IMG/VR virus record: IMGVR_UViG_3300035199_000786 | Coordinates: 1 to 41,095 of that record | Length of the DNA: 41,095 nt | Source: a virus | Strand: one strand, 5' to 3' | Part shown: piece after piece, positions 12,719-26,756 of the stretch | Layout of the letters: each line of letters starts with the position of its first letter | How positions within the stretch are numbered: the first letter of the stretch is position 1 | Notes under the pieces: model-generated | The model's database searches: none | Told to the model about the DNA's origin: nothing | What the model saw: only the letters and a program-made list of their open reading frames with translations | Program-made: the position numbers and the translations under genes

Positions 12719-13027
12719 GTGAAGTTCACAAAAAAATATCTTAAGCAGATTATTAAAGAAGAGATTGCGGCTGTTTTAAGCGAAAAATCTAAAGAAGACG
12801 AAGTAGATCCATACGAGAGAGCCTTAGAGGCCCCTTTGGCGGAAGAAGATCTTGAAGAAGATAAGGACTGGATCCAGAAGGCGGTTAATCCAGATCACGA
12901 GGGAGACTGTACTCCGATGACAAAGAAGACGTGCACCCCTGCACGCAAGGCGTTAGCGAAACGTTTTAAGAAAGCAGCTAAGAAGAAGAAAAAGAAAGGC
13001 GGTACTGGCTGGCAAGGCAAGGTATAA
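12719..13027 (+). CDS. leader-A protein, Lys-rich internal protein candidate
   Basis: 102 residues with a GTG start at 12719. It opens with MKFTKKYLKQIIKEEI, the type A leader found on at least nine other genes here. A second (L/I)-x-E site follows (AVLSE). An acidic middle (residues 25-60) is followed by GDCTPMTKKTCTPARKALA and a C-terminus with runs of Lys, a plausible DNA-contacting tail. The proposed role is a protein packaged with DNA in the head, with the leader removed by the gp21-type protease. This is inference. It overlaps the next gene by one base (TAATG) and follows the primase after 11 bases. Confidence 0.7.
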   Translation: MKFTKKYLKQIIKEEIAAVLSEKSKEDEVDPYERALEAPLAEEDLEEDKDWIQKAVNPDHEGDCTPMTKKTCTPARKALAKRFKKAAKKKKKKGGTGWQGKV

Positions 13028-14007
13028 TGCAGATCTCAGAACATAGACTTCGACAGATTATTTTAGAAGAGGCGCCCCGCCGCATAGTTGAATACTATAT
13101 CGATCAAGAAATTGAGGCGTTAATCTCCGAAGATGAAAAGGCCGACTGGAATGCTGCAAAATGGAGAGCACGAAAAAAGAAGTTGCGCAACGCGGCCCTC
13201 GGAGCCTTGGGCCTCGGTACAGGTCTGGGTGGCCTTAAATACACTACGGATCAGTATTCTGACGCCAAGTCGGCAGATAACGCTGAGTGGGCGGCCGAGC
13301 GAGAAGCGGACCGCCAGTCTCTAGCTCAGAAAAAAATAGAACTTGAAACTTACATGAACAACCCAGCCGCCTTTCGATGGGGTGTTGGAGGCGAATCAAT
13401 GATGCAGCTTCCGGGAGAAGAAGGAATGGGGGGGACATCAGTGCTCCCGGCAAGTTATTCAGTCATTCAACAGGTGCACCATGATAAAAAGAACGGCACC
13501 CCTCGCTATGGAATTCCGGATCTTGATAAGATACCGAATATGACTGGGGAGCAGTCCGAGGGCATCGGAGATCCAATTAAAAATTTGCAAACGTTTTTCT
13601 CTGATTTTTCAGAATCTCAGATGATAGACGCGTCCGCCGAACTTTTTGGTGAGTATCCCAAGGGACACCCACAGGCCGGCCAACGAAAATACCCCCACAT
13701 TAAAAGAATGGCAGCTAGTGGTCTTGAATCAAGAATACTAATGCTTCACCCGGGCGAATTAGATCCAAACTATGTGCTGCCAGAAAACGGAATGACAGTT
13801 AAAGATTATTATAATTGGGCATTCTTTAATCAATTCTTGAGTGCGGATGAACAAGAGATGTTTGATATGGGCAATCCGGAACGAGAAGCGGACGCCCAAA
13901 CAACAACCCAACACAGTGTAGACATGACCCCTAACAAGGGGTTTACTTGGAAAGAAAGCCGCGTCACTTGGAAAAACTATAAAAATCGAAAGAAAGTGCT
14001 TGCATAG
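13027..14007 (+). CDS. leader-A protein, 326 residues, unknown cargo
   Basis: It begins MQISEHRLRQIILEEA, a divergent type A leader with an I-L-E site; a further I-S-E site occurs at residues 33-35. Next come a basic helix and a short Gly/Ala/Leu hydrophobic segment (about 55-70) that could insert in a membrane. The remaining 250 residues have no family I recognise. The final 40 residues are basic. The cargo size makes this one of the largest tagged proteins in the window. Possible role: ejected head protein that contacts the host membrane. It shares a one-base overlap with the Lys-rich tagged gene upstream. Confidence 0.65.
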   Translation: MQISEHRLRQIILEEAPRRIVEYYIDQEIEALISEDEKADWNAAKWRARKKKLRNAALGALGLGTGLGGLKYTTDQYSDAKSADNAEWAAEREADRQSLAQKKIELETYMNNPAAFRWGVGGESMMQLPGEEGMGGTSVLPASYSVIQQVHHDKKNGTPRYGIPDLDKIPNMTGEQSEGIGDPIKNLQTFFSDFSESQMIDASAELFGEYPKGHPQAGQRKYPHIKRMAASGLESRILMLHPGELDPNYVLPENGMTVKDYYNWAFFNQFLSADEQEMFDMGNPEREADAQTTTQHSVDMTPNKGFTWKESRVTWKNYKNRKKVLA

Positions 14008-14028
14008 TCAATAGAGACGTGCTATATT
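14000..14028 (+). promoter_or_regulatory. sigma70-like promoter for small ORF and Mre11-Rad50 gene
   Basis: TTGCAT (14000-14005) and TATATT (14023-14028) are spaced by 17 bases, giving a good host-type promoter in the gap after the leader-A gene. Predicted transcription start is near 14035, ten bases before the small ORF at 14046. It would serve as an early promoter for the recombination-repair gene at 14177. Confidence 0.55.
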
Positions 14029-14045
14029 AATACATGAGGGCAAAA

Positions 14046-14165
14046 ATGTATTTTATTGTGGACACGTTCGTCAAGGTCGTATGTTTTGAGATTGGTATGT
14101 GTTTTGGCATATTCGTCTTACCAATAATCATGCATGCATGTTTTGGTGCACCCTATATTAACTAA
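14046..14165 (+). CDS. small membrane protein candidate, 39 residues
   Basis: An ATG at 14046 follows GAGGG (14036-14040) at a suitable distance and gives a 39-residue protein ending in TAA at 14163-14165. An upstream in-frame ATG at 14034 would lie at the predicted transcription start, so 14046 is preferred. About residues 9-33 are hydrophobic (Val, Cys, Phe, Ile, Met rich), consistent with one membrane helix; three Cys are present. The stop is followed three bases later by the GGAGGA site for the nuclease gene, so the two are probably co-translated. No function is recognised. Confidence 0.5.
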   Translation: MYFIVDTFVKVVCFEIGMCFGIFVLPIIMHACFGAPYIN

Positions 14166-14176
14166 CCGGAGGATAT

Positions 14177-17100
14177 GTGAAGTTTGCCCATATTAGCGAC
14201 ACTCACATTAAAAATTTAAAATATCATTACGAGTATCGAGTAATTTTCGAACAGCTATATAAGAAGCTGCAAGAAGAGAAAGTCGATTACATCGTTCATT
14301 GTGGAGATATTGCTCATACAAAAACGCAAATATCTCCAGAGTACGTGGATATGTGCTCGCAGTTCTTTGAGAACCTTGCGAACATAGCCCCAACGTATGC
14401 TATTTTAGGCAATCATGACGGAAACTTAAAGAACAGTAGCCGTCAAGATGCCTTGACACCAATTTTTAATGCACTTAAACATCCGAACCTTCATTTGTTG
14501 AAAGAGTCCGGAGAAACAAATATCAACGATGAAGTGTGTTTAAATGTCTTATCGGTCTTTGATCGTGATAGTTGGATTAAACCGACCAACCCAGACAAGA
14601 TTAACATCGCTCTTTACCATGGATCCATCAGCAATTGCAAGACAGATGTTGGATGGGTTATGTTGAATGGCGAAGATACGATGGAGATTTTTGATGGATT
14701 TGATTTTGCTATGCTTGGCGATATCCATCGCCGTCAGATTCTTGATAAGGCCGGCCGCATTTGGTATGCCGGTAGCACTGTACAGCAAAACCACGGAGAA
14801 ACAAACGACAAGGGTATTCTTATCTGGGATATTCAATCAAAGGATGATTGGGATGTTGAGCCGATTGTGTTCAAGAATCCAAAGCCGTTCATTACGCTGG
14901 AACTCACACCGAAAGGCCGGATGCCCAAGGGTGCAAATGTCCCAGAGGGCGCCCGCCTTCGAATCGTAAGCCACAACAATCTGCCGCTTAACATTATGAA
15001 GCGCGCAATTGATATTGCAAAGCACCGATTTAAACCGGAGGTGGTAACCTTCTTGAATCGTGCGGCCGGCCAACGTGGAGATGTGACTGAGCTTACTGAC
15101 ACATTAAAAACCGAAAACCTGCGGGATATCAATATTCAAGAGGAGTTGATGGATGAGTATCTGAAAGACTTTCAGGTCGACTCTTCTACTATGGAAAGGG
15201 TGTACGAACTCAACCGCAAGTACAAGAAAGTAGTTGAGGACAATGATGACATTTCAAGAAACATTAATTGGAAATTGAGAAATCTTGAATTTGATAACTT
15301 ATTTAATTACGGAGAAAACAACAATGTACGCTTTGAGGAACTTAATGGGATTACAGGAATCTTTGGGAAGAACTTTTCTGGGAAGAGCAGCATTATTGAT
15401 GCTGTGCTGTGGACTCTTTTTAATACAACCTCGAAAAATGAGCGTAAGAATCTCAATGTTATTAACCAGAATAAGGAATCGTGCCGAGGAAAACTAACCA
15501 TTGACGTTGGCCATTTAACTTATACTATCGAAAGAACAGCAGAGAAATATACCAAACGGTTGAAAGGGGAGGAGACGCTGGAAGCCAAGACAGATCTTAA
15601 CTTTGAAGTTTATGATCAGGCCTCTGGCGACACCACGTCTCTCAATGGTTTAAGTCGAATTCACACGGACAACAACATTCGTCGACACTTTGGCGCCTCC
15701 GATGACTTCCTCATTTCTTCTATGGCATCTCAGCATGGTGCACTGGCTTTTATCGACGAAGGCTCAACTCGTCGAAAAGAAATCATTGCCAAGTTTCTTG
15801 ACTTGGAGATCTTCGAGAAGAAGTTCAAGCTGTCCAAGGACGACAGCACCGACCTTAAGGGCGCGCTAAAGCGCCTGGAATCGCGCAATTACGATGAAGA
15901 GATAGAAGAGGCCGCCGGAGAGCTAGGAGCCAAGAGGAGCGAACTGAGCGCCCACAAACAGGAGTGCGATAGTTTAAAATTGGAGATTGACTGTATAGCA
16001 ACAACTTGCGAAGAATTACGTAACAGCATCGAAGCGATACCCGAAGAAGTAATTAATGTTGTTGATACCAGGCGAGAGATCCGAAAGAAGCAGATCCAGA
16101 TTGCGTCTTTAGAAAGCGAGAACAAACAGTACGCTGTTGATTTGAGTGTCAAGCGAGGCTTATCTGAAAAGATAGAAGAGTATTTAAATAAAATAAATAT
16201 TAAAACTTTAGTAGAGCAACAGGAATTAATCGACGGTTTGGGATCCCAAAAGAGCGAGCAAGAAAGCGCGCTAGCCAGTCTGCTCCAGGAAATGGAAGAC
16301 ATCGAACGCAAAGCTTCGCTTCTAGAAGGTATTCCGTGCGGAATTGAATTTCCTCAATGTAAATTCATCCGAGATGCAAATGTTGCAGTGGCCAACTTAC
16401 CACACGTAGAAGAAAAACGTGGCCACTCGGAAGCAAACATTAACACAATTAACAAAAAGATGCAGAGTCTCCGGCCCGATTTTGTGGCAGAGCAAATTGA
16501 TAAGCACACAAAGATCGTTGACAGAAGAACGAATCTGACAAACGAGATAGCTGACTTTAATTTGTCTATGGAAAAGAATCAGACGTCCATCGAACGCTTG
16601 GGGTATGAATTGAAAGATTTAGAAAACAAAAGAAAGATGTACGAAGAAAACAAGGAAGCTATTGAAAACTTTGAAGAGTTTACAACGGAACTTGATGCCT
16701 GCAATGCTAAGTTAGAAAAAGCAGAGGCCCAACATGAGCTTTGTCAAGAACAAACGCTTGAACTCTATAAGGAAGTTGGTTCAATGGAACAAAAAGTAGA
16801 AAGCGTCCGAGAACAAAAGCAAGAATATGTAGACTTACAAGAGGAATATTCAGCTTATGATCTTTATATGCGGTGCATGCACACCTCGGGGATTGCTTAC
16901 GATATTATTAAGAGAAAACTCCCAGTTATCAATCAGGAGATAGCGAAAGTTCTTGCGAATATTGTAGACTTTGAAATCTTTTTTGAGGATTCCGGAAAGA
17001 AATTTGATATTTTTATTAAGCACCCTCGGCATGAAGCACGTCCCATTGAGATGGCTTCCGGCGCAGAAAAAACTTTGTGCGCCATGGCACTTCGTTTGGC

Positions 17101-17326
17101 TCTTTTGAGTGTCTCGTCACTACCTAAGAGCGATTTATTTATCCTCGATGAGCCGGGCACAGCGCTCGACGAAGAAAATATGGAGGGTTTTATTAGGATA
17201 TTGGAACTAATTAAAGTATATTTTAAGAACGTTTTGCTTATCTCACACCTTGATTCGCTCAAAGACTGTGTTGACATGCAAATTGTAATCGAAAAGAAAT
17301 CAGGATACGCTAGAGTTAATCAATAG
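14177..17326 (+). CDS. fused Mre11-Rad50 (SbcD-SbcC, T4 gp47-gp46) nuclease-ATPase
   Basis: 1049 residues in one uninterrupted frame from a GTG at 14177 (GGAGGA at 14168-14173). Residues 1-220 are an Mre11/SbcD metallophosphatase: D8, H10, D44, GNHD (78-81), H148 and GDIH (181-184). Residues about 270-355 fit the Rad50-binding helices of Mre11. Residues 366-1049 are Rad50/SbcC: Walker A GKNFSGKS (397-404), long coiled coil (about 545-900), signature ASGAEKT, and Walker B with FILDEPG (D991, E992). The hook at the coil tip has C721 and C728 separated by six residues rather than the usual CxxC. In T4 the two subunits are separate and process DNA ends for recombination-dependent replication. A single chain enforces 1:1 stoichiometry. 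Confidence 0.88.
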   Translation: MKFAHISDTHIKNLKYHYEYRVIFEQLYKKLQEEKVDYIVHCGDIAHTKTQISPEYVDMCSQFFENLANIAPTYAILGNHDGNLKNSSRQDALTPIFNALKHPNLHLLKESGETNINDEVCLNVLSVFDRDSWIKPTNPDKINIALYHGSISNCKTDVGWVMLNGEDTMEIFDGFDFAMLGDIHRRQILDKAGRIWYAGSTVQQNHGETNDKGILIWDIQSKDDWDVEPIVFKNPKPFITLELTPKGRMPKGANVPEGARLRIVSHNNLPLNIMKRAIDIAKHRFKPEVVTFLNRAAGQRGDVTELTDTLKTENLRDINIQEELMDEYLKDFQVDSSTMERVYELNRKYKKVVEDNDDISRNINWKLRNLEFDNLFNYGENNNVRFEELNGITGIFGKNFSGKSSIIDAVLWTLFNTTSKNERKNLNVINQNKESCRGKLTIDVGHLTYTIERTAEKYTKRLKGEETLEAKTDLNFEVYDQASGDTTSLNGLSRIHTDNNIRRHFGASDDFLISSMASQHGALAFIDEGSTRRKEIIAKFLDLEIFEKKFKLSKDDSTDLKGALKRLESRNYDEEIEEAAGELGAKRSELSAHKQECDSLKLEIDCIATTCEELRNSIEAIPEEVINVVDTRREIRKKQIQIASLESENKQYAVDLSVKRGLSEKIEEYLNKINIKTLVEQQELIDGLGSQKSEQESALASLLQEMEDIERKASLLEGIPCGIEFPQCKFIRDANVAVANLPHVEEKRGHSEANINTINKKMQSLRPDFVAEQIDKHTKIVDRRTNLTNEIADFNLSMEKNQTSIERLGYELKDLENKRKMYEENKEAIENFEEFTTELDACNAKLEKAEAQHELCQEQTLELYKEVGSMEQKVESVREQKQEYVDLQEEYSAYDLYMRCMHTSGIAYDIIKRKLPVINQEIAKVLANIVDFEIFFEDSGKKFDIFIKHPRHEARPIEMASGAEKTLCAMALRLALLSVSSLPKSDLFILDEPGTALDEENMEGFIRILELIKVYFKNVLLISHLDSLKDCVDMQIVIEKKSGYARVNQ

Positions 17327-17337
17327 GAGTGAGTACC

Positions 17338-17667
17338 ATGAAAGTAACCAAGGCAACCCTTAAGAAGATTATTAAGGAAGAGATAAAGAAAACCTTTGAA
17401 GATTTAAAAAGAGCACGTAATACCACTCTATTAGATTTATATGAATTCAGTAACTTAGTTCAAAGCGGAGAAAGAGAAGCGCGAGTCACCGGAATGGATA
17501 TGTCGTCGGGTACGAAAACTCCCATTACGATGACTCTATCTTTGGTTGATGAAGAGCCGGTCACAACTTTGACCGGCGGTACTAGAGTTCCGGTACCGGA
17601 CGATCTTCTTGGCCGGCCATTTAATGTTGCACAATTTGCTGAATACATTTTTGTCTTAAGGCAGTAG
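17338..17667 (+). CDS. leader-A protein, 109 residues
   Basis: The ATG at 17338 follows TAGGAG (17324-17329) and gives MKVTKATLKKIIKEEI, a clear type A leader. An in-frame GTG at 17329 would add three residues but would lie inside the ribosome-binding site, so 17338 is chosen. The cargo after the leader is about 90 residues: a charged helix, then a beta-rich part (about 45-100) reminiscent of small phage proteins, with no recognised family. Proposed as a head-packaged protein on the strength of the leader only. It begins 11 bases after the Mre11-Rad50 gene. Confidence 0.65.
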   Translation: MKVTKATLKKIIKEEIKKTFEDLKRARNTTLLDLYEFSNLVQSGEREARVTGMDMSSGTKTPITMTLSLVDEEPVTTLTGGTRVPVPDDLLGRPFNVAQFAEYIFVLRQ

Positions 17668-17688
17668 AATACACGAGGATAGCTAATA

Positions 17689-18708
17689 ATGAAGCGCATA
17701 ATAGAAAATTGGAATAAGTTTTTAAACGAACAAGGTGACATGGACCAGCAAGCAGCGCAATGGCTAGCCGATCAGATTGCGCCATTGATAGCAGCCGCCG
17801 ATTCGGGAAACTTTTCGCAGCCTCTACTGCAACTCGTTCAAAGGTTAAACACTCCGGAAGGAACGAGTCCTGCCGTACGAGCGCTCTTACAGCGCGGAGA
17901 TATGGATGGCGACCCCAGTGACGAGGTAGTCAAAGTCTTAGAGAAGCAGGCGATCCCAGCGCCACAACTTATCCCCACGCAGGGTGTTATCGACTTGTTC
18001 AAGTCGGTAGGATACAATGGCTCAAACGCCAAAGGCCTGCAATCAGTCATCAATGGGGTCTCCGGAGCACCGCCGATTCTCGCAGCCGGAAATGGCGGCC
18101 AATACTATATCATTGATGGCCACCACAGATGGTCTGGCGCCACAGTGTTCAACCCAAACTGCAAGATTCCAGCGAACATTATAGTGATGGACCCGGGGAA
18201 AGCACTCCTTGTTAGCCAGCTATCAATCGCCGCCTATCTGGGCGCCGGTAAAAAGTTACCCTCCGCTAGCGCGAAAGAGGGCCGAAGCATTATTGGACCA
18301 AACGCGATGGACCGCGAGCAGGTTGAAGAAGCGCTTTTAGCTAATATTGGCAAAGTTATGGATCCGAATGCAGGTGCACCCTTCATGAACCCCAGAGTCA
18401 TTGCTGTGGTAATGAACTCTAAATATGGACAGAATGCAAGCCAACAGGTACAAGAATTAGCCTCTGCTGGCGGCAAGCTTGGAAAAAGAAAAGAACGCAT
18501 TGTTCGTGGTGCGTGTGGTAAGATCGCAGATAACTGTGCGGGCTTAGCACAGAAATACTCCAGCGAAGGACCCCCACGAGAAATAATGCCCCAGTTTGAT
18601 CCAGATAAAGGCGGCCCAGACTTTAGTTCTGTTGATGATTCCTTTTCCTCTGGAAAACTTAACTTCAAGCCTAACTTCGGTACCGCCGGCACCACAACAA
18701 TGAAATAA
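17689..18708 (+). CDS. leader-B protein with ParB/sulfiredoxin-fold domain
   Basis: 339 residues. The first 14, MKRIIENWNKFLNE, are the type B leader, ending in L-N-E and resembling the T4 capsid-targeting peptide MKTYQEFIAE. Residues about 95-175 form a ParB/sulfiredoxin-like domain: a predicted substrate loop, then YYIIDGHHRWSGA with D143-G-H-H-R147, and then a strand IPANIIVMD. DGHHR is typical of ParB-like nuclease or NTPase proteins (the ParBc_2 type). The rest is Ala/Gly-rich and helical. If the leader targets the capsid, this would be an enzyme injected with the DNA, comparable in logic to T4 Alt. Whether it binds CTP, cuts DNA or modifies protein cannot be told. Confidence 0.7.
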   Translation: MKRIIENWNKFLNEQGDMDQQAAQWLADQIAPLIAAADSGNFSQPLLQLVQRLNTPEGTSPAVRALLQRGDMDGDPSDEVVKVLEKQAIPAPQLIPTQGVIDLFKSVGYNGSNAKGLQSVINGVSGAPPILAAGNGGQYYIIDGHHRWSGATVFNPNCKIPANIIVMDPGKALLVSQLSIAAYLGAGKKLPSASAKEGRSIIGPNAMDREQVEEALLANIGKVMDPNAGAPFMNPRVIAVVMNSKYGQNASQQVQELASAGGKLGKRKERIVRGACGKIADNCAGLAQKYSSEGPPREIMPQFDPDKGGPDFSSVDDSFSSGKLNFKPNFGTAGTTTMK

Positions 18709-18723
18709 AGGAATAGATCAATA

Positions 18724-19218
18724 ATGAAAATCACTAAAAGAAAACTCAAACAGATTGTCAAAGAAGAACTCTCTCTCGTTTTAAACGAAGAACAAGGGGC
18801 CCAAGATTCAGGAGCACAGGCTCTTGCCGCGGCCCTGTCAAAAAATCCCAAATTTCAACAAGAAGCCGAAAAGGCATTCTCGGATCCAAAAGTAATGAAA
18901 CTCTTAAAACAATTGGAACAAGCAGGAATGAACGAGGGGAAATACGAGGATATAATGGATGCGCCCACGGTCGGTGGCGCCATTGGTCAGTTTCCAATGG
19001 CAAGCAAGGTTGCCGGAGCAGCGACTGGTACCGGCATAGCCGTCGGAACGGCACACGATATCTTATTAGCGTTAGGCACATCTTCCCCGGCTCTTTTCGA
19101 TGCTGCAGCAGCCCTTGTGGGCGCCGGCGCACCAATTGTGATCGGAACCGCGCTATGGTTTGTCTATAAATTCATGACCGAGAAATCTCCGCTCGAGCGC
19201 TCCAAACATAAGGAATAA
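18724..19218 (+). CDS. leader-A protein with hydrophobic Gly/Ala-rich domain
   Basis: 164 residues. Leader MKITKRKLKQIVKEEL is followed by a second site, LNE (20-22). Residues 30-70 are a charged helix containing a DPKVMKLLKQ pattern that is also present (DPKVQAAVQQ) in the leader-C protein at 22305-22919. Residues 94-150 are strongly hydrophobic and Gly/Ala-rich, compatible with two or more membrane helices; the C-terminus is basic. A packaged protein that inserts in the host membrane after ejection is a possible reading. It is preceded by an AAGGAATA leader shared with four other genes nearby. Confidence 0.65.
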   Translation: MKITKRKLKQIVKEELSLVLNEEQGAQDSGAQALAAALSKNPKFQQEAEKAFSDPKVMKLLKQLEQAGMNEGKYEDIMDAPTVGGAIGQFPMASKVAGAATGTGIAVGTAHDILLALGTSSPALFDAAAALVGAGAPIVIGTALWFVYKFMTEKSPLERSKHKE

Positions 19219-19221
19219 ACA

Positions 19222-20373
19222 ATGTCAGACGAAAAAGAAAATAACGAAGATAAAAACGAATTTGATTTTCTGCCTCCCGCAGAACCACCTCCCGCGTTCG
19301 CGCAGGAAAAAGACAGCTACCACGAATCAGTAGAAGCAGAAGACTTCGGCATGGTAGAGGATTTCGGATTACAGATGGAATACTCTGATGAAGATTTACT
19401 CCCCGAGAACACTGCGCCTTCTTCGATCAATATCGGCTTTGTCGGGGTTGGCGGTGGAGGCAACAAAATGGCGAATGCGTTCATTGAACTTGGATTCAAT
19501 AAAACGCTACTCGTAAACTCAACCGGAAAGGATATTCCGAAGAATGTTGAAGAGGACCACGTCGTTTTAATTCCCGATTCTGACGGAATCGGAAAGAATG
19601 TAGAATATGGAAAAGAGGTTTTAAGTCAAAATGGTGCGATTATTGAAGATGCCCTGCGTATCAAGCTCGGTAAAGTTGATTGGTTATTCGTCCTTGCTGG
19701 CGGTGGTGGTGGTACCGGTAGCAGTGTTACCGCTCTGCACCCTGTCTTTGAGCGTTACATGCGCTCTGTGCAGTCGAGTGGCAAGGTCGTTTACATAGTC
19801 TCATGGCCGACAGCACAAGAAAACCTTAACCCCACAATCGCTCGTAATGCGTTGACGCTGGCAAATGATGTTGCCAGGCACCCGCATATCATTCTCGACA
19901 ATGAACGAGCCACTCGCTTACTTCGCGGCAGAATCGGCATGCTCGGCATGTATCCTGTCGCCAACACACAATTTGCTAAGTCGTTCGCCCAAGTTTTAAA
20001 ACTCTCCACCGAGGATTCACCGATCCAATCTTTCGATAGTAAAGATCTGGAAACATGCTTGGGCAATGACGGTCGTGCCTTCTTAGGCTCAACCATGATT
20101 AAGGATCCAAATACTGGAAAGCTTGGATCGGTGATCCTTCATAACTGCATGAATCGTTCTGCATGTCCTCCACCGAAAGGTAAGGCAGCTGCAGGTTCGT
20201 TGGTGCTGGTTGTGTCGGAAGAGATGGTGGCTGATCCAAAGGTCAGTAAGAACATTGAGTCGGCAATTGCTTATGTCGGCGGTCGATGCGAGACACTTTT
20301 CTCTGGCGTTTACGTCCGAAAGAATGTGCCCGGATTGATTGCGATACTAAGCATGAATGGATTAGCAACATAA
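19222..20373 (+). CDS. FtsZ/tubulin-like GTPase
   Basis: 383 residues. An acidic, Pro-rich extension (1-68) precedes a GTPase domain: GFVGVGGGGNKMANAF (72-87) as the phosphate loop T1, then the tubulin signature loop LAGGGGGTGSSV (158-169), and a segment FDSKDLETCLGNDGRAFLGS (271-290) that aligns with the FtsZ T7 loop NxDFADVxxxM...GxAMMG. D272 and D275 occupy the DxxD positions that complete the GTPase site of the neighbouring subunit. Polymerising, GTP-hydrolysing activity is therefore plausible. Phage tubulins (PhuZ, TubZ) position DNA, while an FtsZ mimic could interfere with host division. Unlike its neighbours it carries no A, B or C leader, so it probably acts in the cell. Confidence 0.8.
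   Translation: MSDEKENNEDKNEFDFLPPAEPPPAFAQEKDSYHESVEAEDFGMVEDFGLQMEYSDEDLLPENTAPSSINIGFVGVGGGGNKMANAFIELGFNKTLLVNSTGKDIPKNVEEDHVVLIPDSDGIGKNVEYGKEVLSQNGAIIEDALRIKLGKVDWLFVLAGGGGGTGSSVTALHPVFERYMRSVQSSGKVVYIVSWPTAQENLNPTIARNALTLANDVARHPHIILDNERATRLLRGRIGMLGMYPVANTQFAKSFAQVLKLSTEDSPIQSFDSKDLETCLGNDGRAFLGSTMIKDPNTGKLGSVILHNCMNRSACPPPKGKAAAGSLVLVVSEEMVADPKVSKNIESAIAYVGGRCETLFSGVYVRKNVPGLIAILSMNGLAT
20346..20371 (+). repeat. 26-base direct repeat, copy 1
   Basis: These 26 bases, at the 3' end of the FtsZ-like gene, recur at 20680-20705 with a single mismatch (C at 20352, T at 20686). In this copy they encode the last residues (LSMNGLAT) of the GTPase. The repeat pair brackets the leader-A gene 20385-20684. 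Confidence 0.9.
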
Positions 20374-20384
20374 GGAATAATGAA

Positions 20385-20684
20385 ATGAAAATCAGCAAAT
20401 CACAACTTAAACAGATTATTAAAGAAGAAATTGAAGATACCTTTCTTCAGAAAAGCCCAGAGCGCGCCGACGATCAACAATCATATGAAATGGCCATGGG
20501 TCAATCCCGCCAGACGGTCATAGATGTGTTTGGAGAAGATGTTGGTAGCATGGCTTGGAATCTTATTGAGACTGCGCTTCATGCGAAGCCCGGTAGTTTT
20601 GAAACTGTAATGCCGCTACATCAAGAGATTGCCGATTTGGCACGGATCGATAGCGATGTCAGAAGTGATATGGGAGAATACTAA
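20385..20684 (+). CDS. leader-A protein, 99 residues, between direct repeats
   Basis: The ATG at 20385 follows AAGGAATAA (20372-20380); it gives MKISKSQLKQIIKEEI, a canonical type A leader. An ATG at 20380 is followed at once by a stop, so it is excluded. The cargo is about 80 residues, acidic and helical, with no recognised family. The gene lies between two copies of a 26-base direct repeat, which suggests it arrived or was duplicated by recombination. Proposed as a head-packaged protein. Confidence 0.7.
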   Translation: MKISKSQLKQIIKEEIEDTFLQKSPERADDQQSYEMAMGQSRQTVIDVFGEDVGSMAWNLIETALHAKPGSFETVMPLHQEIADLARIDSDVRSDMGEY

Positions 20685-20705
20685 GTATGAATGGATTAGC
20701 AACAT
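20680..20705 (+). repeat. 26-base direct repeat, copy 2
   Basis: Second copy of the repeat at 20346-20371 (25 of 26 bases identical). Here it overlaps the stop of the leader-A gene and supplies the first two bases of the ATG at 20704. It replaces a normal ribosome-binding region, because no good Shine-Dalgarno sequence is seen before 20704. This fits a recombination seam. Confidence 0.9.
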
Positions 20706-21159
20706 GAACAAACTATTTGAAAATTGGAACAGATACTTGAATGAGACAGTTGGGTTAGAAGACAACCCTGACTTGTCCCAAGATGGCTTCCAAACTGCCA
20801 AGAAACCTATTCCATTAGAATTTAGATACGCCGAGACGGATGAAACCATCGAAACCAAGGAAGGTTCAGTGGGAGCAAAAGCCGGCGATGCTATTATGAC
20901 AGGCACGGAAGGCGAGCAGTGGCCGATTCCAGCCGAGAAGTTCGCGCAAACATACGACGACCTTGGCGATGGGACAGCGGCGAAGAAAAACATACCGGTA
21001 TTTGCCAAAGAAATGAGCGAACCATTCCAAGTTAAAGTATCGTGGTCAAATGATTTGCTCCAAGGAGAGCCGGGAGACTATTTAGTACAATACGGCCCGG
21101 GCGACTATGGAGTGGTCGGTAGAGAAATATTTGGGAAAACCTATGAAACAGCTATTTGA
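20704..21159 (+). CDS. leader-B protein with tandem PGDYG-like domains
   Basis: 151 residues from ATG 20704, opening MNKLFENWNRYLNE (type B leader). Two repeated units follow: residues 56-84, with AGDAIMTGTEGEQWPI then FAQTYD, and 119-147, with PGDYLVQYGPGDYGVV then FGKTYE. The second contains the literal PGDYG motif that names a Pfam family of small phage and bacterial proteins of unknown function. The duplication within one chain is clear by eye. The start region is the second copy of the direct repeat and lacks a strong ribosome-binding site. It overlaps the next gene by 17 bases. Confidence 0.65.
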   Translation: MNKLFENWNRYLNETVGLEDNPDLSQDGFQTAKKPIPLEFRYAETDETIETKEGSVGAKAGDAIMTGTEGEQWPIPAEKFAQTYDDLGDGTAAKKNIPVFAKEMSEPFQVKVSWSNDLLQGEPGDYLVQYGPGDYGVVGREIFGKTYETAI

Positions 21160-21469
21160 AAATTGGAACAAATTTCTAAACGAAGCAGCATATGAACCCG
21201 GTCGTGCTGTTGCTGATGTTGATACTGGCGAAGATTATATGAGCCCCGAAGATCTTATGCGTGAGGAGGTACAAGACTTGGCTGACAAGTTTAATGTCGA
21301 AGCATCCGTTGAGATCGCCAGCGATGGAAAGCCGGCTATTTTGGTAACACACCAAAATGGAGAAACTACGGTGTATAATGACACAGAAGAGATGTATCAA
21401 GATCTAGCAGACGAAATAGGCCAAGATATACATGGTTCACACGAATCTCCATATGATGCAGGTTATTAA
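21143..21469 (+). CDS. leader-B protein, 108 residues, acidic
   Basis: The ATG at 21143 lies inside the upstream gene and gives MKQLFENWNKFLNE, nearly identical in DNA to the start of 20704 (the ATTTGAAAATTGGAACA stretch is shared). An open frame extends upstream to 21107, but the leader fixes the start. The cargo is acidic, with a helix (about 40-60) and a beta hairpin-like part (64-85), and ends Asp/Gly/His-rich. No family is recognised. Proposed as a packaged protein because of the leader. Confidence 0.65.
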   Translation: MKQLFENWNKFLNEAAYEPGRAVADVDTGEDYMSPEDLMREEVQDLADKFNVEASVEIASDGKPAILVTHQNGETTVYNDTEEMYQDLADEIGQDIHGSHESPYDAGY

Positions 21470-21482
21470 AAGGAATATTATA

Positions 21483-21566
21483 ATGGCATTTAGAAAAAAC
21501 AAGAAGTTTATTGATCCTCGTTACTTTATGGACGAGAAAACAGAAATTATCAAAGAAGAAAAATAA
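21483..21566 (+). CDS. orphan leader-C peptide, 27 residues
   Basis: ATG 21483 to TAA 21564-21566. The peptide begins MAFRKNKKFIDPRYFMDE, matching the type C leader of 22305-22919 (MAIRKNKKRIDPRYFLHE), and ends EIIKEEK, like the end of a type A leader. It has an AAGGAATA ribosome-binding region (from 21470) and a TAATG overlap with the next gene, so it looks translated. It contains a leader but no cargo: either a minimal packaged peptide, or a leader left behind after its cargo was lost or replaced. Confidence 0.65.
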   Translation: MAFRKNKKFIDPRYFMDEKTEIIKEEK

Positions 21567-22279
21567 TGCAAATCACCAAGTCCCAACTTAAACAGATCAT
21601 CCGAGAAGAGATAAGTTCGTTAGAGGACCTTGAAGCAAGGCTTGCGGCCATGGACACTCGCCGTAGCGACGATGCCAAGAAAGTTAAACACAGAGCCGGC
21701 CGAGATGAATTAAATGAGATTGCTCGCACTCTGCAGCAAATGTTTGAGTTGTCAAATCTTATGGTGCAGAAGAAGTCAGAGCACTTTCAGAACACAACTG
21801 TTTATGGATTGTCCATACGAGAGCAGCCAGCCCTCAAGGAATTGGCTGATATCACTAGAGAATATGCCAAACACGTAAAAGACACAGAAACAGAGCCAGT
21901 GAGCGAAGGTCGCTCCTCGGAGGCTTCCGAAAACTTAAGATATGTAAATAATCAAGTCGGCCATATAATCAAGAAGGTTAGTAAACTTTCGGATGAGATA
22001 GTGCACGGCTCTACTCGGGGAGGCCCGTACCAGAGAATGCCGGTTGACATGTATATAGACGGCTTCGACAATTACGATGAACCACGAAAAGTGCTTCGCG
22101 ACCAAGGCGTAAAACTACACATGGCGATCAAATATGGCCTAGACAACAACATACCGAAACCAATCAGAGACAGACTTAAGAACGAGATGGCAGCTGGATT
22201 TCTGCGAAGCATGCGCGGTCAGCAGGACATCTATGAAAATATTCATGGCAAAAAAGATTTGCCGCACAAACAATTTTAA
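21566..22279 (+). CDS. leader-A protein, 237 residues, helical cargo
   Basis: MQITKSQLKQIIREEI opens the protein (type A leader). The start overlaps the stop of the orphan leader peptide (TAATG). The cargo is highly charged and almost entirely helical by composition, with heptad-like stretches around residues 45-100 and 125-150 and a basic C-terminus. No enzyme motif or membrane segment is seen. The length is above average for the tagged set. A DNA- or core-associated internal head protein is possible. Confidence 0.65.
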   Translation: MQITKSQLKQIIREEISSLEDLEARLAAMDTRRSDDAKKVKHRAGRDELNEIARTLQQMFELSNLMVQKKSEHFQNTTVYGLSIREQPALKELADITREYAKHVKDTETEPVSEGRSSEASENLRYVNNQVGHIIKKVSKLSDEIVHGSTRGGPYQRMPVDMYIDGFDNYDEPRKVLRDQGVKLHMAIKYGLDNNIPKPIRDRLKNEMAAGFLRSMRGQQDIYENIHGKKDLPHKQF

Positions 22280-22304
22280 TCATTTATATATAAGGAATAA
22301 CACA

Positions 22305-22919
22305 ATGGCTATAAGAAAAAACAAGAAGAGAATTGACCCTCGGTATTTTTTACACGAGACGACGTATAGAGATGCAAAGACCATGATCGAAGAGATGGGT
22401 GGCTCATCCAAGGGTATAACCGACACTGACGTCGCAAAGGCAGAAGAGATCGTGCCCAAGCTCAAGCAGAGCCCTGAAATTATGGATGCAGTCAAACAAG
22501 CCGCACAAGATCCAAAAGTGCAAGCAGCGGTACAACAGGCGCTATCACAGGGGGGATCCATGCAAGAGGAGGAAGATCCATATGCAGGAGATCCGATCGG
22601 CGGCGCATACAAAAAAAGAGCAGATCTACAGGGAATTGGCTCAGCCGCGGCCGGCACCGTGAGTGTTGCCGCATTCGCAGCTGCTATGACGCCCGGTGCC
22701 CTTGCCACTATTGGCATGGCGGCAGCTATGACCCCTGCGATGCTAGCCATGGGACTAGTCGGCGGCCCTATTTTGGCAGGTGTAGCACTGATGATCGCCG
22801 CAGAGCTGAGCATGTCCAAACATGCCAATCTGAACAAAGCCGCCGACAAAAGCGGCCGCACCCGCGACCGTTCCGACTTCTCTGATAAAGAGTGGCGAAA
22901 GATTCACAACAGAGGTTAA
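22305..22919 (+). CDS. leader-C protein with long hydrophobic Ala/Gly/Met domain
   Basis: The ATG at 22305 follows AAGGAATAA (22292-22300) and gives MAIRKNKKRIDPRYFLHE, the type C leader with an L-H-E site. Residues 40-85 are a charged helix with DPKVQAAVQQ, similar to part of 18724-19218. Residues 110-168 are a continuous Ala/Gly/Met/Ile-rich hydrophobic block, enough for two or three membrane helices, followed by a basic tail. The shared plan with 18724-19218 under a different leader implies the same kind of cargo can be carried on different tags. It may insert into the host membrane after ejection. Confidence 0.65.
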   Translation: MAIRKNKKRIDPRYFLHETTYRDAKTMIEEMGGSSKGITDTDVAKAEEIVPKLKQSPEIMDAVKQAAQDPKVQAAVQQALSQGGSMQEEEDPYAGDPIGGAYKKRADLQGIGSAAAGTVSVAAFAAAMTPGALATIGMAAAMTPAMLAMGLVGGPILAGVALMIAAELSMSKHANLNKAADKSGRTRDRSDFSDKEWRKIHNRG

Positions 22920-22922
22920 TCA

Positions 22923-23207
22923 ATGAAAGTCACCAAATCCCAACTTAAACAGATCATCAAAGAAGAGATTGCAGAAGCGCGCCTTCCCGCTTGGGAACGA
23001 CCGGGCAACGTGACACCTCCGGAAGATGTTGAGGTTATGATCCCGGGCTACGGCAGCATGAGGATTTACCAGATCAAAAGAAAGCTGGCCACGATGTTAG
23101 AAGAGGCGTTTCACGATGCCGCGAGAGATCCCCCCCAATTTACCCACCTTAATAGTGGGGTTATACAAGCGCTACATCAGGCACTAAAGGACAACGATGC
23201 GCTATGA
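22923..23207 (+). CDS. leader-A protein, 94 residues
   Basis: It opens MKVTKSQLKQIIKEEI (type A). A Pro-rich stretch (about 19-33) is followed by a helix containing LATMLEEAFHDAARD and a C-terminal helix. No family is recognised. It starts three bases after the leader-C gene and overlaps the next tagged gene by four bases (ATGA), the first of a run of three type A genes joined by such overlaps. Proposed as a packaged protein. Confidence 0.65.
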   Translation: MKVTKSQLKQIIKEEIAEARLPAWERPGNVTPPEDVEVMIPGYGSMRIYQIKRKLATMLEEAFHDAARDPPQFTHLNSGVIQALHQALKDNDAL

Positions 23208-23683
23208 AAATCACAAAATCACAACTTAAACAGATCATCAAAGAAGAAATTGGCTCTATAATTGAAGGCGACGGCCAGGTGAGCAACATGGGTGGTTTTT
23301 CAGGAGGTCTAGGCGCCCTCGGCCGAGCACCCCAAGAAAGCCCGGAAGACGAATTAGACTCGCAAGTTCAATCACGCGCCATGGGATTCTTTATGAATTT
23401 AGGATTGGACGAAAAAACAAGTGGGGTATTTGTCAAAAACATAGCTATTCCAGATTTGCAAACTGTGATGGAGATGGTGCCAAAAATAGATACAGCCGCG
23501 GAAGATGAGGGTCCCTTACGAGAAAAGGAACAGCACCCTAGTGAAAGTTGCGACCAAACACATCCTGACGAAAGCCACGAAGAGTGGGAAAAACAGCCAC
23601 TAAAGATAAGTACCCCGGCAATTGATCCGCTCAGTAAAACTCCTAAATCGCGCCGCTTCCGTGCCAAGGGGCAACGAAAATGA
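23204..23683 (+). CDS. leader-A protein, 159 residues
   Basis: It opens MKITKSQLKQIIKEEI, the consensus of the type A leader, followed closely by a further I-I-E-G site (18-21). A Gly-rich linker (25-45) precedes a helical part (48-100); the C-terminal 50 residues are polar with a Lys/Arg-rich end. No family is recognised. ATGA overlaps on both sides (23204-23207 and 23680-23683) imply coupled translation with its tagged neighbours. Confidence 0.65.
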   Translation: MKITKSQLKQIIKEEIGSIIEGDGQVSNMGGFSGGLGALGRAPQESPEDELDSQVQSRAMGFFMNLGLDEKTSGVFVKNIAIPDLQTVMEMVPKIDTAAEDEGPLREKEQHPSESCDQTHPDESHEEWEKQPLKISTPAIDPLSKTPKSRRFRAKGQRK

Positions 23684-24114
23684 AGATCACCAACTCACAA
23701 CTTAAACAGATCATTAAAGAAGAGATTGAAAATGACGATCGCATCGTAGCGGCTATAGAAAAACTCTCCAAAGAATCGTGGAGCGATGTTGCTCTTACGA
23801 GCGCTATACAAGAACTATCATCGAAGATGGAAGATTTAGATATTAGCGTAGACTTTTTATCGGCCGCCGTTTTGGGTACGGATCCTCAATCAATTTCCGG
23901 CGCCCAGTCTGGTGTTGGTCGCGCAGCGCGCCCCACCAAGAAGACACCGGCCCCTGCGCCCGACAAGACTGACAACACGATGGATGAGGTATCCTCAGAA
24001 AAGCAACGTCGCTGGGCATGCGCCCAGAAAGACAAATCAGCATCGGACCGCGCCCAAAGCCTGTCGGCAGCAGAAGCAGAAGAGATGTGCAAATCAAATG
24101 TGGAGGAAAAATGA
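23680..24114 (+). CDS. leader-A protein, 144 residues
   Basis: It opens MKITNSQLKQIIKEEI (type A). Residues 20-65 are an acidic helical part; 70-100 form an Ala/Pro/Thr-rich linker. The C-terminal 45 residues carry a helical patch with two Cys (CAQKDK and EEMCKSN). No family is recognised. It is the last gene in the contiguous tagged series and overlaps the holin-like gene, so tagged and lysis genes may be co-transcribed late. Confidence 0.62.
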   Translation: MKITNSQLKQIIKEEIENDDRIVAAIEKLSKESWSDVALTSAIQELSSKMEDLDISVDFLSAAVLGTDPQSISGAQSGVGRAARPTKKTPAPAPDKTDNTMDEVSSEKQRRWACAQKDKSASDRAQSLSAAEAEEMCKSNVEEK

Positions 24115-24311
24115 TGGCAACAACGAAAGCATTTGTAGATACGTGGTTATCAAAACTAACGTCTCGCAAATTAATGGTGTGGGCAACAGCAACGGGACTC
24201 ACATTCACAGGACACGTCACCAGTGAAGACTGGGTGATTATTTCAGCAATCTATATTGGTGGTCAAACAATTATTGACGGCATCGCTAGATTGCGGGGGC
24301 ACAATGCTTAA
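24114..24311 (+). CDS. holin-like small membrane protein
   Basis: 65 residues with two predicted membrane helices (about 20-36 and 39-58), a short loop and charged ends: the class II holin layout. Two start codons exist, at 24111 and 24114. GGAGG (24102-24106) is better spaced for 24114. The motif EDWVIISAIYIGGQTIIDGIARL resembles small phage membrane proteins often found beside Rz genes. It is directly followed by an Rz-like gene, which supports a lysis role. No endolysin is visible nearby, so an alternative role cannot be excluded. Confidence 0.55.
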   Translation: MATTKAFVDTWLSKLTSRKLMVWATATGLTFTGHVTSEDWVIISAIYIGGQTIIDGIARLRGHNA

Positions 24312-24690
24312 AGGGAAAATATTAGAATTCGCCCTCAAGCATTGGAAAATAATAGCTATCATATTATTGGCAGCTGTCGTCGTGCTGAAAACACGATATG
24401 ATTATCACCTGATGGAGTCTGCTTACACTACTATGGTTGAATCAAATGAGGCACAAATACAAGGCCTTAAGGAGATTCATAAAAGAGAGATAGAAGAGAA
24501 ACAGTTACTGATGGAAAGCTTTTTGGAATCAATGGCGAACATCGAAGAAGATTATGAAAATACGTTAGCTGAGCTAGAAAAAGAGCGCGCCAAAAAAACC
24601 AAAGAATACACAAGAAAATTCAGTGAAGACAAAGAGGGACTAATTAAAGATATAGAGACAACCCTTGGAATTGAATATGTGGCTCCTTAG
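24304..24690 (+). CDS. Rz-like inner-membrane spanin candidate
   Basis: 128 residues from ATG 24304. The N-terminus is cytoplasmic and basic, one membrane helix spans about 14-29, and the rest (35-125) is a highly charged periplasmic coiled coil. This is the type II signal-anchor plan of i-spanins such as Rz, which join inner and outer membranes in the last step of lysis of Gram-negative hosts. It overlaps the holin-like gene by eight bases and the next gene by 14. The presence of a spanin-like gene suggests a host with an outer membrane. The match is by architecture only. Confidence 0.6.
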   Translation: MLKGKILEFALKHWKIIAIILLAAVVVLKTRYDYHLMESAYTTMVESNEAQIQGLKEIHKREIEEKQLLMESFLESMANIEEDYENTLAELEKERAKKTKEYTRKFSEDKEGLIKDIETTLGIEYVAP

Positions 24691-25105
24691 TGTATTAATA
24701 GCATTCTCCACTCCGGCACACGCAGAAGATGCACAGTTTACCATTCTAGGACAAAATCAGCCGGCCCCGTTTGAGGGCGTTCTTCTCAACAAACAGGCCA
24801 TCGGCCAAGTGTTGTCAGGCTACGATAGGTTTCAATATGCATGCGACAGCGTTGTTCAATATGAATTAAGCAAACAATCAGAACTACATCGTTACGAATT
24901 AAATTCACTCAAGATCGAACATAAGGCCTTAACAGATGAGTACGATTTGTTTATAATGCAAAAGGACAAAGAGATTCAGTCGCTTGTTAAAACTCTAAAG
25001 AAAACATCACCACGCAATAAATGGTTATGGTTTGCCGGCGGCCTTGTTGCCGGTTCTGCCGCGTCATATGGTGCGTACAAAGCGTTCAATGAAAATGAAA
25101 GATAA
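24677..25105 (+). CDS. secreted coiled-coil protein with C-terminal membrane helix
   Basis: 142 residues from ATG 24677; a TTG at 24665 would add four residues. An N-terminal signal peptide ends in PAHA before Glu17, a signal peptidase I site with no lipobox Cys. The centre is a helical coiled coil (about 55-110), and a Gly/Ala-rich membrane helix lies at 115-136. It occupies the place of an o-spanin gene, overlapping the Rz-like gene in another frame, but lacks the lipoprotein Cys. It may be a non-canonical spanin partner or an envelope-stress protein. The C-terminal helix recalls u-spanin topology, but the N-terminal lipid anchor is missing. Confidence 0.55.
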   Translation: MWLLSVLIAFSTPAHAEDAQFTILGQNQPAPFEGVLLNKQAIGQVLSGYDRFQYACDSVVQYELSKQSELHRYELNSLKIEHKALTDEYDLFIMQKDKEIQSLVKTLKKTSPRNKWLWFAGGLVAGSAASYGAYKAFNENER

Positions 25106-25487
25106 AGACCTAAATCACATCGCAGCAGTAGAGAAAGCGATTGCTGAAAAGTATGGAGAAGCTACAATAGCCAACCCAAATGCAGACTGGGACGAGACCA
25201 AAGAAAGAGAATATTTGAAACAGATGAAAGAGTTATATCGAAAAACAAAGAAAAATGAAGAGTGGCAGGAAAAAGTCGACATAAATGGTATAAAGGTTTC
25301 AAAAAAACTACTTAATAGAGAATCTTTAAGGAGTTGTTCAGTCTGCGGAAGTTTTCCAAAGAAATCGATGGATGATGTCTGCCTTACCAAATTTGATTGT
25401 TGCAGTAAGTGCCACCTTCAATACGTGGAAGGCCGAGAAGAAAGATGGTTAAAAGGATGGAGACCGAATAATGGCAACAGTTTATGA
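25089..25487 (+). CDS. small Cys-rich (zinc-ribbon-like) protein
   Basis: 132 residues from ATG 25089, overlapping the previous gene by 17 bases. The first 75 residues are charged and helical. The C-terminal part has C83-x2-C86, C98, and C104-C105-x2-C108 followed by HLQYVEGREERW, a treble-clef or zinc-ribbon-like arrangement. This could bind DNA, RNA or host RNA polymerase, as many small phage zinc proteins do. No specific family is assigned. Its end overlaps the start of 25471-26019. Confidence 0.6.
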   Translation: MKMKDKDLNHIAAVEKAIAEKYGEATIANPNADWDETKEREYLKQMKELYRKTKKNEEWQEKVDINGIKVSKKLLNRESLRSCSVCGSFPKKSMDDVCLTKFDCCSKCHLQYVEGREERWLKGWRPNNGNSL

Positions 25488-26019
25488 AATCATACAAGGG
25501 CTAGCGCAAGCAGCCGCAAATGCTTACGACGGCGCGCTCGGAGAAGACTACGAGCCGGCTGACAATGGTATTCTACGGAGAGAAGAAGGAAACGCTCTCA
25601 TCGATCAGCGCGTAATGGATGGCTTCAATGTCAAGTTTTACGGCGATATGATGTGTCTTTCCTATCAATCTGAAATTCAACTCAAAGAGGTTTACGCCTC
25701 TGGGTTTGAAGGGGAAATGGATCAGAGGCTCACCGATATTGCAGGTTGGCTGAAGAAAGAGTACAAAAAAATAACAGGAGATTCCGTCACCCTAACTGAA
25801 GAAGGGGAGATTGATGTCATGGTACAAAATTCGTCCCGAGTCAGAACTTGGGTGCAAGCCAAGAAACACTATAAGGTGGGGGGCTTAGCGGAAGAAATGA
25901 ACAATGATACGGGCTCTCCCAGTCCCGGCGTAGAACGAGGCTGGAAGACTTTTCTTGAGCAAGGCGGCTGGAACGGTACCGGTGGCAAGCGACCTAAAAA
26001 TGATACTAGGAAGAAGTAA
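25471..26019 (+). CDS. conserved-looking phage protein, unknown function
   Basis: 182 residues. It opens with a helix YEIIQGLAQAAANAYDGA, then a region around GFNVKFYGDMMCLSYQSE and a helix with KKEYKKITG, before a polar, basic C-terminal tail with low-complexity Gly/Lys. The composition is that of a soluble alpha/beta protein. I have the impression of similar proteins close to terminase genes in marine phages, but cannot name a family. It overlaps the zinc-ribbon-like gene by 17 bases and is followed two bases later by a tagged gene. Virion association is possible. Confidence 0.6.
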   Translation: MATVYEIIQGLAQAAANAYDGALGEDYEPADNGILRREEGNALIDQRVMDGFNVKFYGDMMCLSYQSEIQLKEVYASGFEGEMDQRLTDIAGWLKKEYKKITGDSVTLTEEGEIDVMVQNSSRVRTWVQAKKHYKVGGLAEEMNNDTGSPSPGVERGWKTFLEQGGWNGTGGKRPKNDTRKK

Positions 26020-26021
26020 AT

Positions 26022-26756
26022 ATGAAAGTTAGCCGTCATGAACTTTATCGTATTATTGTAGAAGAGTATGCCCGTGACATGGGCATCGACGAATCTCAAG
26101 TTGACGATTTGCTAACCCACATTAAAGGCGGACCTAAGCCTGATTGGATGGACGATGACGAGCAGGATGTTCCAGATCCGCCCGAGGTACCTCCGGCACC
26201 GGATCAGTCAGATGTGACTTCGAGTGAGACTTATCCAATGGATATCCCAAGTGACGATGCTCCGGAGAGCGAATATCAGGGGCACCAAAATGACTCCGGC
26301 CCCGACGTCGAAGACCAACTATCGACTTTAATCCAGGGTATGGATCCCGAAGCAGTGGCTGAACTATTTCAAGCAGTTTTTGAAAAGATTCCTGGTGTCG
26401 AACTATCACGCCCGGGCGACGAAGACTACCCCGGGGAGGAGACGCTTTATTCCCCCGGCGCCGAAGGCCGCCCTACGGCGGGCTTTCAACTCGAGGCTCT
26501 GATAGAGCTTGTCCGTGAAGTATTAAACGAGGGCCATTATCATGATATGGGTGGAGAAGGAGAGATGTATGATGCGATTGCCGCCGGAGCAGAAGAGCGC
26601 ACCTCGGTACAGAAAATGGAGTCAGCATACCACCAGCTTCAAGATGTTTTCGATACTCTCGAAGATGAAGTCGCACAAGATATGGCTAGACGTATTATTT
26701 CTGATTTAGAAACTCTCATGGATACCACAGAACATCCGGAGGATTATCGCGAATAA
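26022..26756 (+). CDS. acidic protein with divergent leader A
   Basis: 244 residues. It opens MKVSRHELYRIIVEEY, a divergent type A leader with I-V-E. The body is extremely acidic, with Pro-rich linkers (40-95). Two helical parts (about 95-130 and 185-240) flank an internal LIELVREVLNEG (163-174) that looks like a second (L/I)-x-E site. No family is recognised. It sits four bases ahead of the terminase gene, where T4 has its small terminase gene 16, but it lacks the DNA-binding features I would want for that call. A core or internal head protein is more likely. Confidence 0.6.
   Translation: MKVSRHELYRIIVEEYARDMGIDESQVDDLLTHIKGGPKPDWMDDDEQDVPDPPEVPPAPDQSDVTSSETYPMDIPSDDAPESEYQGHQNDSGPDVEDQLSTLIQGMDPEAVAELFQAVFEKIPGVELSRPGDEDYPGEETLYSPGAEGRPTAGFQLEALIELVREVLNEGHYHDMGGEGEMYDAIAAGAEERTSVQKMESAYHQLQDVFDTLEDEVAQDMARRIISDLETLMDTTEHPEDYRE

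Follow-up and report, generated by a model that had tools for sequence, protein, structure and literature searches.

The window analysed here, the whole stretch of 41,095 nucleotides in the IMG/VR record IMGVR_UViG_3300035199_000786, comes from an uncultivated, marine, T4-like virus infecting bacteria. Within 14 kb it contains 15 tagged genes, whose products open with one of three short N-terminal leaders (A, B and C); near-complete relatives contain 4-14 tagged genes each. A first-pass annotation had assigned leader A to ten genes, leader B to three and leader C to two, and had proposed that the leaders target the proteins to the capsid. All 15 were read in the window at the coordinates given below, on the + strand like the head genes described later, and the genes are closely packed and often overlap. 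The bodies behind the leaders had also been described as mostly unrelated, which is true in the window except for 18724 (leader A) and 22305 (leader C), whose bodies are homologous (E ~4e-9, composition statistics off).

Tagged genes of the window

Leader A opens ten proteins. The gene at 12719-13027 has a GTG start and encodes 102 residues, with the leader VKFTKKYLKQIIKEEIAAVLSE, [LI]xE at both E14 and E22, a very basic tail and three A-tagged orthologues. At 13027-14007, a divergent leader, MQISEHRLRQIILEE, precedes a cargo of 326 residues without known domain, and the gene at 17338-17667 (109 residues) has an alternative GTG start at 17329. The gene at 18724-19218 shows the leader MKITKRKLKQIVKEELSLVLNE and a cargo of 164 residues with a hydrophobic stretch, the one homologous to the C-tagged 22305 cargo. 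Four genes encode proteins of 99 (20385-20684), 237 (21566-22279), 94 (22923-23207) and 144 residues (23680-24114), the last with at least 23 A-tagged orthologues in the loci compared, and the gene at 23204-23683 (159 residues) carries the consensus leader MKITKSQLKQIIKEEI. Finally, the gene at 26022-26756 encodes 244 residues with a divergent A-like leader, MKVSRHELYRIIVEEY, directly upstream of the terminase gene. This protein and its homologues form a divergent leader A subfamily (M.[IV]S...LYRIIIEEY...EE), many orthologues of which immediately precede terminase, and its members could be structural instead of injected.

Leader B was found in three genes. The gene at 17689-18708 has the leader MKRIIENWNKFLNE and a weakly ParB-like cargo of 339 residues with a DGHHRW motif; its homologue L260:2021 (L and a number label related loci compared with the window) lies directly behind gp21. 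The cargo of 20704-21159 is a PGDYG domain (PF14083, 5.5e-19), and its matches in phages of Gram-positive hosts start only behind the leader. The third gene, 21143-21469, shows the leader MKQLFENWNKFLNE and encodes 108 residues.

Two copies of leader C are present. The gene at 22305-22919 has the leader MAIRKNKKRIDPRYFLHETTYRD and encodes 204 residues, with a hydrophobic C-terminal half; two of its homologues in relatives are A-tagged and one is C-tagged, and a conserved-word search of IMG/VR found no orthologues. The other copy, at 21483-21566, is an orphan leader of 27 codons (MAFRKNKKFIDPRYFMDEKTEIIKEEK), whose stop overlaps the next ATG. As annotated, it is an MDE variant of leader C. This variant runs into IIKEE, the tail of leader A, and therefore represents a C/A chimera; the orphan looks like a leftover of tag exchange.

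Leader conservation, exchange and T4 register

A pattern scan of IMG/VR gave at least 119 stretches with leader A, at least 120 with leader B and 35 with leader C, and the collected loci provided at least 363, at least 231 and 41 leader proteins, respectively. Among the matches listed, 605 leader proteins fall into 383 body clusters, 308 of them singletons, thus unrelated bodies behind a common leader are the rule and not a quirk of the window. Neither the reversed sequence of the window and of six relatives nor 1.03 Mb of randomly chosen virus contigs contained a match to the leader patterns, and methionine directly precedes the leader A motif in 304 of 310 matches in the loci compared, which argues against chance. 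No enrichment of T4-like late promoters (TATAAATA) was found upstream of the leader genes.

The consensus of 190 non-redundant B leaders is MKLLLENWRKYLNE, with W8, Y/F11, L/I/V12 and E14 conserved; E14 carries 3.6 bits of information, and the next two positions only 0.6 and 0.3 bits. Leader A (188 non-redundant sequences) is conserved to residue 22, MKITKSQLKQIIKEELExVLxE; an [LI]xE with its glutamate at residue 22 is present in 27%, against 1.2% in bodies, and any [LI]xE within residues 16-32 in 59%, against 16% in bodies. Leader C (35 non-redundant sequences) shows the consensus MAIRKNKKRIDPRYFLHETTYRDE.EE, and 25 of the 35 have a second [LI]xE, of the RDLNE type, 4-12 residues after LHE. 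The annotation had all three leaders ending in a gp21 cleavage site, with mature proteins starting just after IKE, LNE or LHE. That stands for leader B, in which LNE is the end of conservation, and needs correction for the other two: conservation extends to residue 22 in A and about eight residues past LHE in C, and the mature N-terminus of many A and C proteins probably lies beyond IKE or LHE.

The strongest new evidence is the exchange of tags on homologous cargo. Among the matches listed, 32 pairs of homologous bodies carry different leaders (22 A/B, eight A/C and two B/C), distributed in 11 clusters. The A-tagged 20385 matches the C-tagged L101:301 at 82% over 76 residues, and the B-tagged 21143, whose distinct orthologues comprise eleven with leader B and four with leader C, matches the C-tagged L446 at 81% over 78 residues. 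The ParB-like cargo has leader B in window gene 17689, and its L260 homologue has an A-like leader. Homology starts at the predicted cut in several pairs: A ...SAVLSE|EDSPMEILG versus C ...YRDLNE|ENSPMEILG, A ...IQVLSE|KDDRCT versus B ...ESLNE|KDDRCT, and B ...KFLNE|AAYEPGR versus A-like ...ENVLNE|AEYEPGR. By these junctions, leader A functionally ends at VLxE and leader C at RDLNE, both downstream of the annotated IKE and LHE. The IIKEE segment is the joint in other pairs, and both A sites may therefore be in use. Several cuts per propeptide are normal in T4 and in giant phages (PMC5694885). Of 98 orthologues of tagged cargo from the window, at least 78 have a tag, and several of the others have leaders too divergent for the pattern; the untagged neighbours 19222 and 25471 have 89 full-length orthologues, all of them without a tag.

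The leaders were compared with sites in the T4 record: YQEFIAE10 in ipII and ipIII, FGSFLTE65 in gp23, INELLRE10 in gp24 and VEALIPE in gp68. In T4, targeting depends on residues 4 and 7 and processing on residues 8 and 10 (PMC9026906). Leader B, WRKYLNE, has the spacing of the T4 core, W-x-x-Y/F-L-x-E versus Y-x-x-F-I-A-E of IPII and IPIII, and in leader A both LKQIIKE and LExVLxE match T4 sites, with an aliphatic form of the core (L8..I11 I12.E14). Leader C contains F-L-x-E with proline at the first core position, and reproduces the T4 core only in part. The share of leaders with PHIxxPHI[LI]xE is a partly circular measure, since the collecting patterns contain this motif, whereas a scan with a T4-core pattern is not circular: aromatic-x-x-aromatic-[LIVM]-x-E close behind MK or MR, with MN added for the window, its relatives and the random contigs. 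In 49 kb of T4 this pattern found exactly ipII and ipIII. It matched 27 N-termini in the 1.07 Mb of the window and six relatives, including B variants outside the collecting pattern, compared with a single one in the 1.03 Mb of random contigs; the first 50 kb of cyanophage S-SM1 show no T4-core N-terminus. The three tag types of the annotation are kept as leader families but are not unrelated codes: PHI-x-x-PHI-[LI]-x-E is common to A, B and the T4 sites, and all three leaders are swapped on homologous cargo, so the tags look equivalent and not like separate channels.

Head module, distribution and cargo

The head module of the window is of T4 type, portal and protease according to Pfam and terminase according to similarity. 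It contains a gp17-type large terminase (26761-28344; 47% identity to the terminase of Flavobacterium phage immuto), a gp20-type portal (28353-30335; PF07230, 8e-78) and, in agreement with the annotation, a gp21-type prohead protease (32049-32657; PF03420 Peptidase_S77, E=3.7e-31; phrog_207, 6e-55), the proposed processing enzyme. The adjoining gene, 32672-33088, encodes a conserved head-cluster protein with homologues, whose N-terminus, MNKSELKKAIKPLVKECINEIL, superficially resembles leader A; as to its being the source of leader A, the profile scores of most homologues were no better than shuffles. A candidate for a gp22-like scaffold (40014-41093), open at the window end, is acidic and helical with many [LI]xE, and shows 40% over part of the immuto protein adjoining gp23. 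The gp23 gene itself lies outside the window. The major capsid proteins of six relatives have a propeptide that closes with a conserved LL[RK]E|[AS] at residue 59-60, corresponding to E65 of T4.

Leader genes lie directly behind gp21 in several relatives. In L258, L259, L260, L263 and L250, an A-like or B-like leader gene is located between gp21 and the conserved head-cluster gene, the A and B versions having different bodies.

The annotation had expected the leaders only in genomes with a gp21-type protease, and the check upheld this. Among contigs of at least 28 kb, the protease was found in 29 of 46 with leader A versus four of 47 random ones (Fisher p=2e-8). The other 17 look like fragments without head module, as gp23 is also absent from them (0/17), against its presence in 24 of the 29 leader contigs with the protease. 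All 15 leader-bearing contigs of at least 140 kb contain the protease, as do 24 of 27 of at least 100 kb. Leader A matched once in 257 Gb of assemblies from bacteria and archaea, evidently on a phage contig that had been assigned to a bacterial bin: L473 (PBSV01000031.1), which carries several further A and B leaders and is filed in an Opitutia metagenome-assembled genome, either as a binning error or as a hint of the host.

In a tblastn search of 50,697 phage records with the leader consensus peptides, no A leader and only chance matches to B were found, although such short queries do not prove absence from isolates. Flavobacterium phage immuto shows one A-like N-terminus, immuto35A_175, above all shuffles, and a B-like one, immuto35A_201, directly behind gp21. 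The leader sequences were not found printed in the literature searched, but they may still have been reported elsewhere.

Pfam domains in 150 tagged representatives comprise NUDIX, zeta-toxin-type and other P-loop kinases, protein kinase, DnaJ, L,D-transpeptidase (YkuD), TseH-like, GNAT, DNA methylase, guanylate kinase, PGDYG and LRR, and most of the 150 have no Pfam domain. By analogy with T4, this repertoire would suit injected effectors: T4 Alt modifies RNA polymerase (PMC9026906), IPI blocks the restriction system GmrSD, and IPIII is required on some hosts, e.g. ECOR17 (PMC9391042). Predicted structures of L473:3857-5239 and of window 17689 reached a predicted local distance difference test score (pLDDT) of 32-33, too low to be of use. 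To read the L473 protein, which has no Pfam or PDB match, as an ADP-ribosyltransferase on the basis of motifs seen by eye is no more than a guess.

Some cargo may consist of several units. L492:2584-3759 is one frame with the 21143 cargo in mid-protein, preceded by LEQIVREELENVLNE and followed by LEIMIEDELTQVLQE|KKKK; internal copies of the A tail (EELENVLNE|AEYEPGR and EDELTQVLQE|KKKK) lie between cargo units and basic modules rich in Lys and Cys. The internal A-tail motif occurs 27 times in 76 thousand residues of tagged cargo versus 125 times in 701 thousand residues of other proteins of the same loci (about twofold, p=0.002), a weak signal which suggests that multi-unit cargo may be cut inside the head.

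Three untagged regions of the window were also noted. An FtsZ/tubulin-family protein is encoded at 19222-20373, inside the leader cluster (PF00091, 1.8e-8; FtsZ structures, 1e-10), and about 44 orthologue hits in related loci point to a tubulin-like gene in this T4-like phage lineage. The frame at 14177-17326 (1049 residues) joins an N-terminal calcineurin-like phosphoesterase to a RecF/SMC ATPase, fused counterparts of T4 gp47 (Mre11/SbcD) and gp46 (Rad50/SbcC). Between tagged genes, at 24018-25105, small membrane and coiled-coil frames resemble a holin-spanin lysis cassette, with no Pfam match.

Proposed mechanism and known systems

The leaders are very probably T4-type capsid-targeting propeptides on cargo proteins that would be cut by the protease, packaged and injected. 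The short N-terminal helix (MKITKSQLKQIIKEEL..VLxE in A, MKLLLENWRKYLNE in B, and in C MAIRKNKKRIDPRYFLHETTYRDLNE or the C chimera with an A tail) would dock the cargo on the prohead core or scaffold during assembly. Cleavage after [LI]xE by the gp21-type protease would follow: at residue 14 in B, at residue 22 (in leaders that have this site) and/or residue 14 in A, and at the second [LI]xE in C. The mature cargo would stay with the DNA and be delivered into the next host, and recombination at or near the cut site would exchange the tags and make unrelated effector genes recruitable. Docking, cleavage, packaging, injection and cargo functions are what we infer; as far as sequence can tell, the capsid-targeting idea of the annotation is well supported by the T4 core register, leader exchange, confinement to protease phages and the loss of B conservation after [LI]xE, with its cut sites and the separateness of its tags corrected.

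If the leader were instead a head-docking segment that is never removed, the tagged proteins would be structural or scaffold-associated and would not be delivered. The similar-looking helical N-terminus of the conserved gene beside gp21 (32672 and its homologues) and the many cargoes without known domain fit such a role. We consider it improbable, because B conservation stops exactly at [LI]xE, several exchange junctions fall there, and the recognisable cargo, enzymes such as NUDIX, kinases, DnaJ and L,D-transpeptidase, is unlike structural proteins.

The leader could also be a recombination or translation-initiation cassette conserved as DNA, with a peptide that has no targeting role. The codons of leader B bear on this in part, as some are more uniform than those of the bodies (Leu5 is CTT in 85 of 95 and Glu6 is GAA in 218 of 228), which suggests recent spread by recombination, and the packing and overlap of the genes are compatible with it. 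Fixed residues show synonymous variation, however (Ile12 of leader A is ATC in 167 and ATT in 158), the exchange of three unrelated leader sequences on homologous cargo is unexpected for a DNA-level cassette, and the match to the T4 register would be coincidence, which leaves this explanation with very little probability. Equally hard to credit is a leader that targets the host membrane, nucleoid or replication compartment, or acts as a degron, with only a phylogenetic link to the protease. In its favour, the leaders are predicted to form short amphipathic helices, and descent confounds their association with the protease, but such a role gives no account of conservation ending in [LI]xE, of the T4 core register or of leader genes adjoining gp21.

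Several points weigh against capsid targeting. Packaging, cleavage and injection are deduced from sequence. The co-occurrence of leaders and protease is confounded by the common descent of T4-like phages and is not independent functional evidence, and a gp21-type protease alone is no proof of packaging. [LI]xE is a short motif and the helical leaders are rich in glutamate. Many A leaders have no second [LI]xE (only three of the ten in the window have the residue-22 site), so their cut site is uncertain; leader C has no first aromatic residue of the T4 core, and several tagged genes lie outside the head cluster.

If capsid targeting is correct, genome sequences would suffice to list the first-response proteins that abundant, uncultured marine phages inject. 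These would number in the hundreds, most of them unknown, and some have enzyme domains fit for taking over the host or countering its defences. Since mature N-termini can be predicted from the exchange junctions, mass spectrometry could test the hypothesis directly, and the leaders would provide new tags for loading proteins into T4-type capsids. More tentatively, the leaders may form part of a general cargo-loading code, in which several interchangeable, protease-removable tags allow an entire lineage of uncultivated T4-like phages to bring almost any protein into the head by fusion at the cut site, including polyproteins that would deliver several injected proteins.

Encapsulins offer an analogy only: a short terminal peptide brings diverse cargo into a shell of HK97 fold, and these tags are usually C-terminal, uncleaved and used for loading a bacterial compartment. 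In the giant phages SPN3US and phiKZ, many head and ejection proteins have N-terminal propeptides with multiple sites, and the paralogues gp53 and gp54 have near-identical short N-termini (PMC5694885). Their sites are AxE or SxE and most of their propeptides exceed 100 residues, features that were not found in leaders A, B and C, which end in [LI]xE, have 14-26 residues, and are shared by unrelated proteins and exchanged. The closest system is that of T4, in which IPI-IPIII and Alt carry a short N-terminal propeptide on unrelated proteins processed by gp21, an S77-type protease, with the aromatic-x-x-aromatic-[LI]-x-E core in the same register as leader B. The internal proteins of T-even phages are diverse and only their targeting sequence is conserved (PMC3012670). 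In contrast with T4, at least three tag families are found here in one region and are exchanged on homologous cargo. The 15 tagged genes in 14 kb compare with four proteins known to be targeted and packaged in T4 (IPI-III and Alt); two [LI]xE sites seem to be present in leader A, and leader C has no T4 counterpart. The mechanism and most of its defining features are thus those of the T4 capsid-targeting system; what is new is the presence of several exchangeable tag families, an A leader with two sites, and an arsenal of this size and content.

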